A program made the position numbers and the translations under genes. 60,008 nucleotides of DNA. It comes from an uncultured Rhizobiaceae group bacterium. GTDB taxonomy: Bacteria; Pseudomonadota; Alphaproteobacteria; Rhizobiales; Rhizobiaceae. Of this stretch, positions 21,975 to 22,352 are shown in pieces. The notes under the pieces are model-generated. The model worked only from the letters and a program-made list of their open reading frames with translations. It made no database searches and was not told where the DNA came from. Where the stretch lies: NCBI GenBank assembly GCA_938010435.1, contig CALLUS010000007.1:1-60008 (forward strand), read 5' to 3'. Positions within the stretch are counted from its first letter, which is position 1. Each line of letters starts with the position of its first letter.

Positions 21975-22292
21975 CTAGCGAGTTTCAAGTCCGATAAGGA
22001 ACATACCGATAAGCCGGCAGCTCACTCCGGCAATGCCTGAAATTCCTATCTGTTGCTTGTATAAAATGACGCTGACAACAACCGATCCAATCGATCCGAT
22101 GCCAGTCCAAATTGGGTATGCAATTCCCAATGGAAGGGTGCGCATCGACCAGTACAATGCCCCAAGGCTGGCCCCTATCAATGCCAACGTTGCCATGAGC
22201 AAGCCAACACTGAATTTATCCGACATTCCCTTGAGACCTGAAGCCCAAGCGGTTTCTAAAATTCCCGCCGCGATAAGAGCTATCCACGCCAT
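21975..22292 (-). CDS. gdx: Guanidinium exporter Gdx (SugE-type SMR protein)
   Basis: A 105-residue four-span small multidrug resistance protein. The first helix carries the essential Glu in ILETAWASGLK, and GIAYPIWTGIGSIGSVV is the SugE/Gdx pattern rather than the EmrE pattern. Gdx proteins exchange guanidinium for protons at the inner membrane as dimers. The ATG at 22292 follows GAGG at a good distance; the open frame extends to 22331 but that part is the riboswitch. The riboswitch directly upstream supports guanidinium as the substrate. Confidence 0.9.
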   Translation of the reverse strand: MAWIALIAAGILETAWASGLKGMSDKFSVGLLMATLALIGASLGALYWSMRTLPLGIAYPIWTGIGSIGSVVVSVILYKQQIGISGIAGVSCRLIGMFLIGLETR

Positions 22293-22309: not shown

Positions 22310-22352
22310 CGAGTCGTCCCGGCAAGCTCATTTAGCGTCAGGTCGTCCTGAC
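22310..22352 (-). promoter_or_regulatory. Guanidine-II (mini-ykkC) riboswitch
   Basis: On the minus-strand RNA, hairpin 1 (22352-22337) is GTCAGG-ACGA-CCTGAC, a perfect six-pair stem with an ACGA tetraloop. After a 15-base linker, hairpin 2 (22321-22310) is CGGG-ACGA-CTCG with one G-U pair. Two hairpins with ACGR loops closed by G-C pairs and a short linker are the definition of the mini-ykkC element. Hairpin 2 ends 17 bases before the gdx ATG, with the GAGG ribosome site in between, so ligand binding would favour translation of gdx. Gene identity and RNA motif support each other. Confidence 0.9.

Follow-up and report, generated by a model that had tools for sequence, protein, structure and literature searches.

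A probable guanidine-II riboswitch directly before a Gdx-type exporter gene in an alphaproteobacterial genome

Introduction

Two short hairpins with ACGA loops lie directly before gdx, a predicted guanidinium exporter gene, in a 60,008-nt stretch of alphaproteobacterial DNA (the window). This raises the question of whether the hairpins form a guanidine-responsive RNA switch and how such a switch would act on the gene. Our main reading, to which we assign a probability of about 0.9, is a guanidine-II (mini-ykkC) riboswitch that would turn on translation of gdx, with the second hairpin, P2, predicted to pair with the ribosome site when no ligand is bound.

The element and its assignment to the guanidine-II class

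Direct reading of the minus strand from 22352 to 22310 gives 43 bases with two ACGA-loop hairpins, P1 and P2 (Table 1). Each loop is intact, as is the G-C pair that closes it, and the four pairs of P2 are C-G, G-C, G-U and G-C, with a single G-U among them. From the end of P2, 17 nt that include GAGG (22301-22298) lead to the gdx ATG at 22292. The initial annotation had counted the hairpin sizes, the loops, the 15-base gap and the 17-base distance to the ATG correctly, and had left the strand, which is minus, unstated. A promoter scan upstream of the element gave no sigma-70 consensus promoter.

Table 1. Coordinates of the features discussed, in window positions unless a locus is named
Feature	Position	Strand	Description	Basis
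gdx	22292-21975	minus	predicted SMR-family guanidinium exporter, 105 aa	PF00893, PDB sequence matches, conserved residues
Upstream in-frame ATG	22331-22329	minus	inside the linker; the longest ORF, 118 aa, starts here	ORF list
P1 hairpin	22352-22337	minus	6 bp, ACGA loop, 5'-GUCAGG-ACGA-CCUGAC	sequence and RF01068 alignment
Linker P1-P2	22336-22322	minus	15 nt	sequence
P2 hairpin	22321-22310	minus	4 bp, CGGG-ACGA-CUCG	sequence and RF01068 alignment
Predicted anti-ribosome-site strand in P2	22315-22312	minus	GACU	folding
Ribosome site	22301-22296	minus	GAGGUC; GGUC (22299-22296) is the predicted partner of GACU in P2	sequence and folding
Possible outer helix P0, 5' strand	22356-22353	minus	GCUU; faint in the window	comparison of 24 leaders
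Possible outer helix P0, 3' strand	22329-22326	minus	GAGC	comparison of 24 leaders
ACT_3-domain gene	21957-21646	minus	behind gdx	PF10000
Guanidine-II matches before PACE-like frames	L265-L269, L271-L274, L276, L277, L284, L285, L287, L289; also L026		chlorhexidine-efflux type	PF05232

When a 1-kb stretch was searched under an E-value threshold, the Rfam model RF01068 (Guanidine-II) matched the element with 28.8 bits (E 0.0013), which is below its gathering score of 32 bits, a curated filter and no biological definition. A default Rfam scan of the window at the gathering cut-off returned no match, in line with the earlier remark that annotation would easily miss the element, and the covariance-model search recommended at that stage did recover it. 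Against all 4227 Rfam families, the element in the window had an E-value of 0.078. Within its own genome it was the top of four RF01068 matches (E 0.00107), and guanidine-I gave no match there at E 1. When both strands of the 60 kb were searched for ACGA hairpins of 4 or more pairs occurring in twos, with 10 or more pairs combined and a separation of 6-40 nt, the element was the only place found.

The characteristic features of the class are present: two ACGR-loop hairpins with a flanking G-C pair, a linker within the 7-40 nt given for guanidine-II (PMC7544219), and a position near the ribosome site of a guanidine-related gene. In an alignment of 22 related leaders, both sides were changed in 3 of the 10 pairs of P1 and P2, which represents compensating change. 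A protein scan yielded 35 related gdx loci. Twenty alphaproteobacterial loci were scanned with RF01068, and in 19 of them a match was found before gdx, ending 15-18 nt upstream; 13 exceeded the cut-off, with 33-41 bits. L035 was the scanned locus without a match, and L055 had a very weak one (20.5 bits, E 9). The motif is visible in the sequences of L053 and L054, both outside the 20-locus scan.

Since the element is the best match in its genome and related gdx loci carry matches at the same place, the identification holds by homology. The 43 bases are very probably a guanidine-sensing RNA switch directly before a predicted guanidine exporter gene, as the initial annotation had proposed. Apart from being slightly weak, the element is an ordinary representative of a class already known, and its own novelty is low.

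The gdx gene and its start

The Pfam SMR model PF00893 matched Gdx with 67.1 bits (cut-off 23.7). The closest PDB sequences were 8vxu and 6wk5, which we take to be Gdx-Clo; the search names both as SMR-family proteins. Residues E13, W16, S42, Y59 and W62 were invariant in an alignment of 11 sequences. The combination of E13 with W62, S42 and W16 marks the Gdx subtype, W16 being conserved in Gdx and replaced by Gly or Ala in the Qac subtype (as described in the available part of PMC7695847). With the 118-aa reading of the protein, the NCBIfam SugE equivalog NF008512 scored 55.2 bits against a cut-off of 126 and was the top among the listed SMR models. Judged by its sequence, the window protein is a Gdx-type SMR exporter, and export of guanidinium is predicted.

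The upstream in-frame ATG is probably not the true start of gdx. The tblastn matches of homologues start at the residue of 22292; an in-frame ATG 39 nt upstream is also present in L036-L040, with no ribosome site visible before it. Because the longest open reading frame starts 39 nt upstream within the linker, an automatic start call could place P2 in the coding region.

Proposed switch and folding of the leaders

In the proposed mechanism, the absence of guanidine would let part of P2, its loop with the 3' arm, base-pair with the GGUC in the ribosome site, which would leave P2 unformed and exclude ribosomes. The stretch of P2 involved reads GACU in the window and CGACC in most relatives. Two guanidinium ions would bind as P1 and P2 kiss through their ACGA loops; the kissing would hold P2 closed and the ribosome site free, so that gdx would be translated and Gdx would export guanidinium. 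What our analysis itself shows is the pair of hairpins with its homology, the gene, and, as a prediction, the competing helix. The ligand, the kissing loops and the ON direction are carried over from literature on other members of the class, and we infer that the window copy likewise binds guanidine and switches.

Leaders of the window and 21 relatives, which are related and not independent, were folded with a model that contains neither kissing loops nor ligand. The predicted pairing probability of the ribosome site with P2 was at least 0.66 in 21 of the 22 leaders. On a slightly longer stretch, used also for the control, its mean over the 22 was 0.92, and P2 itself was formed with a mean probability of 0.07. 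As a control, the 13 nt before the ATG were replaced by those of 29 window ORFs. These ORFs were called mechanically, had 200 or more codons and a purine-rich stretch, and include unproven starts. With these swapped spacers the mean pairing fell to 0.26 and P2 formation rose to 0.51. In the window the pairing was 0.89 with the native and 0.57 with the swapped spacers, 11 of the 29 swaps being equally good. The values depend on the stretch folded; in L040 the P2 pairing of 0.75 fell to 0.27 on the longer one. The motif GGTC occurs in 8 of 10 non-redundant window-like leaders versus 1 of the 29 ORF spacers. Given this enrichment and the collapse of pairing on spacer swap, the ribosome site in this lineage looks selected to pair with P2.

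Energies were compared with those of shuffled spacers for 137 of the 160 leaders of the survey described below, namely those with spacers of 8-60 nt (23 were left out, L037 among them). The P2:ribosome-site energy was -8.5 versus -4.0 kcal/mol in 10 non-redundant window-like leaders (Wilcoxon p 0.002) and -7.0 versus -5.6 in 57 other gdx leaders (p 0.0013), and no excess was found in leaders of other genes (n = 70, p 0.22). The duplex energy of the window was unremarkable (p 0.14). Closing both hairpins would cost 0.3-10.3 kcal/mol across the 22 leaders (mean 4.6, window 2.9). Forcing both hairpins in the model barely freed the ribosome site, the mean unpaired probability rising from 0.26 to 0.31, and from 0.36 to 0.48 in the window. 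Pairing of the ribosome site with P1 was considered as well and rejected: as a bare duplex in the window, the arm of P1 does better than P2 (-8.2 versus -4.3), yet in the fold P1 stays closed (pairing 0.00).

The folding model points to control of translation by an ON switch: P2 would sequester the ribosome site until guanidine locks P2 against P1. By the same model the window shows this switch weakly, more weakly than its relatives. From the short P2 with its G-U pair, a possibly weaker ligand affinity had initially been suggested. The description of the stem was accurate; the affinity does not simply follow from it, because in the folding model the U of P2 contributes a wobble pair to each of the two rival helices, G-U in P2 and U-G in P2:ribosome-site pairing, and would thus weaken both states.

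For the riboswitch of E. coli, it is the linker that has been proposed as the anti-ribosome-site strand (available part of PMC9300104), and the linker might act in this way here too, with P2 merely kissing P1. We consider this unlikely: the predicted partner of the ribosome site across the 22 leaders is P2, this pairing is mostly lost on spacer swap, and the linker of relatives may serve another helix, P0.

A possible third helix

Most relatives have GCCC, GCUC or GCCU immediately 5' of P1. A second strand, usually GGGC and in some leaders GAGC, GGGU or AGGC, follows 6-8 nt downstream of P1. A helix P0 of at least 4 pairs, 3 of them Watson-Crick, is possible between these strands in 20 of 24 leaders, versus 6.3 expected from shuffled linkers. 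The exceptions are L049, L055 and L228, with fewer than 4 pairs, and L043, which fails the Watson-Crick rule. Most leaders have C-G as the third pair, L037 and the window have U-A, and L038 has U-G; the fourth is U-A in L235. Taken individually, P0 was unusual (p < 0.05) in only 3 of the 24 leaders. It was strongest in the L037 leader, and the four pairs of the window had a fold probability of 0.04 (p 0.33). RNAalifold on the alignment of 22 leaders did not place P0.

In the window-like gdx group (11 non-redundant leaders), the pairing between upstream strand and linker was stronger than in shuffles (mean -6.7 versus -4.2, p 8.6e-5). The corresponding p-values were 0.58 for other alphaproteobacterial gdx leaders (50), 0.038 for leaders of other alphaproteobacterial genes (66) and 0.065 for other classes (33), where the split between alphaproteobacteria and other classes was assigned by hand from locus numbers. 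P0 was accordingly rejected as a general feature of alphaproteobacterial guanidine-II leaders, the excess over shuffles being clear in the window-like gdx group only; single leaders outside this group can still form a P0-type helix. Upstream strands and linkers of different window-like members paired nearly as well when crossed (-6.1), so sequence conservation explains much of the P0 signal. The sequence evidence for P0 in window-like leaders is moderate.

Where formed, P0 leaves 4-6 nt before P2. In the kissing form of the Gloeobacter violaceus riboswitch, a 14-nt linker spans 49 Å (available part of PMC5486947), and by our reasoning P0 and kissing should therefore exclude each other. A tentative extension, which we regard as conceivable and on balance doubtful, is that guanidine-II takes a three-helix form in the gdx leaders of this lineage. 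P0 (of the GCCC...GGGC and GCUC...GAGC types) would enclose P1 and would have to open for guanidine, and P2 would carry its own anti-ribosome-site strand, giving two competing helices in contrast to the linker switch of E. coli.

Genes behind gdx and a genus-mate without the element

The ACT_3-domain gene behind gdx is the probable second gene of the gdx transcript. Such a gene also follows gdx in L035, L036, L037, L040 and L228 (the last cut by the locus end), and no ACT_3 match was found behind gdx in L038 and L039. In the window the gene has an in-frame stop at 21648-21646, where the compared relatives have serine and run about 28 residues further; the relatives are 130-132 aa long. By its sequence, the window copy would be either a truncated gene or affected by a sequencing error. 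In L080 the first gene to follow a guanidine-II element is an ACT_3 gene (1576-1980). The ACT_3 gene is possibly an uncharacterised member of the guanidine regulon; no published work on this subject was found, judged by title.

In L041-L049 and L051-L054, the gene 9-45 nt behind gdx has an isochorismatase-family-like start, a call made from gene starts, with Pfam applied to L042 only. The nearest NCBIfam model to the second gene of L042 was biuret amidohydrolase, below its cut-off. A literature search found guanidine, riboswitch and isochorismatase nowhere together.

The closest gdx (71% identity) is that of G007, a genus-mate; among 15 genomes of the genus, no other besides the window's own has a window-like gdx at E 1e-8. 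L035 matches G007 in contig coordinates and is apparently the same locus. In G007 the hairpins are absent, but gdx, its ACT_3 neighbour and the ribosome site GAGGTCGAC remain. In the 85 nt before gdx of L035, the site GAGGTCGAC, which is the predicted P2 partner in other members, is thus kept without a riboswitch, possibly as a relic of regulation.

These observations bear on whether the window element is a decayed one, once functional and now giving little or no regulation. Its 28.8 bits compared with 33-41 in 13 relatives, the short P2 with G-U, the in-frame stop in the neighbouring ACT_3 gene and the genus-mate lacking the element would all fit such decay. Both loops and the G-C closing pairs are intact, however, relatives with similar or lower scores have kept the element (L036 with 31.1, L041 with 30.6 and L048 with 28.2 bits), and gdx is intact with all five binding residues, and we hold decay to be improbable, a little more so than the linker mechanism. 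A functionless chance pair of hairpins, which a short motif scoring below a curated cut-off might suggest, can practically be dismissed, since the two-hairpin search gave 2 places in total in 200 single-base shuffles of the window and the place before gdx is conserved in 19 of 20 scanned related loci.

Distribution and a link to PACE transporters

Guanidine-II matches were found in 61 of 151 genomes, own genome included (E 0.05), in 45 of 385 genomes of the class (E 0.01), in 83 of 398 of the phylum (E 0.001) and in 70 of 295 of the alphaproteobacterial family f74 (E 0.02). In f74 a window-like gdx occurred in 9 of 394 genomes (E 1e-22), 8 of them with the two hairpins. Among 14 genus-mates only G009 had a guanidine-II match, before a PACE-like gene.

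A broader survey started from 256 leader sequences, 200 of which had a detection; 167 were non-redundant and 160 were used, after L047, L121, L122, L130, L172, L190 and L252 were left out as spurious or misparsed. By sequence motifs, the genes behind the 160 leaders comprised 75 SMR, 35 PACE-like, 13 carboxylase and 9 DUF1989 genes, and 28 that were other or unclear. The Pfam PACE model (PF05232) was confirmed in all three PACE-like genes tested. This model detected a PACE gene in 31 of 120 f74 genomes, none in the own genome and none in 14 control genomes. Thirty f74 loci were taken, and 15 of them had a guanidine-II match (E up to 0.25), 11 above the cut-off. In all 15, a PACE-like open frame begins 14-29 nt after the match (in L271 via a GTG start). 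The sequences suggest that the PACE proteins behind guanidine-II matches may export guanidinium or related compounds. No publication stating this link was found in titles and abstract starts, and it may stand in the 2017 class-validation paper; term searches of the available parts of PMC12186494, PMC7266159 and PMC7736828 gave no PACE transporter.

The Rfam cut-off thus hides probable guanidine-II riboswitches in alphaproteobacteria, and the window probably places one more bacterium among those that meet guanidine. A naturally weak P2 with a G-U pair and an intact gdx would provide a test case for P2 stability setting the switch point. The survey points to further candidate guanidine-controlled genes, PACE transporters foremost.

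Comparison with known systems

The guanidine-II element of E. coli gdx (sugE) likewise has two ACGR-loop hairpins directly before the gene and switches translation ON. Constitutive gdx expression accompanied a 20-bp deletion over the P2 region in a laboratory E. coli, with the cause presumed by the authors (both from the available part of PMC13064478). Compared with the E. coli element, the P2 of the window has 4 bp with a G-U, and P2 is predicted to pair with the ribosome site in the window and its relatives, whereas for E. coli the linker has been proposed (PMC9300104).

The guanidine-II riboswitch of G. violaceus, known from crystal structures, has ACGA loops and G-C closing pairs as in the window and a linker of 14 instead of 15 nt. 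It differs in sequence and gene context, and P0 is unmentioned in the available text of PMC5486947. That paper had already suggested for G. violaceus a stem-loop that overlaps both P2 and the ribosome site, and the idea of P2:ribosome-site pairing is therefore not new.

Gdx-Clo belongs to the SMR family, shares E13, W16, S42, Y59 and W62 with the window Gdx and is about 41% identical to it over 96 residues. The Rhodobacterales gdx leaders (most of L037-L056) share element, spacing and gene with the window, but where the window has U in P2 most have C, and many reach higher scores. An isochorismatase-like start marks the second gene in 13 of the 16 loci L041-L056, whereas in the window this is the ACT_3 gene.
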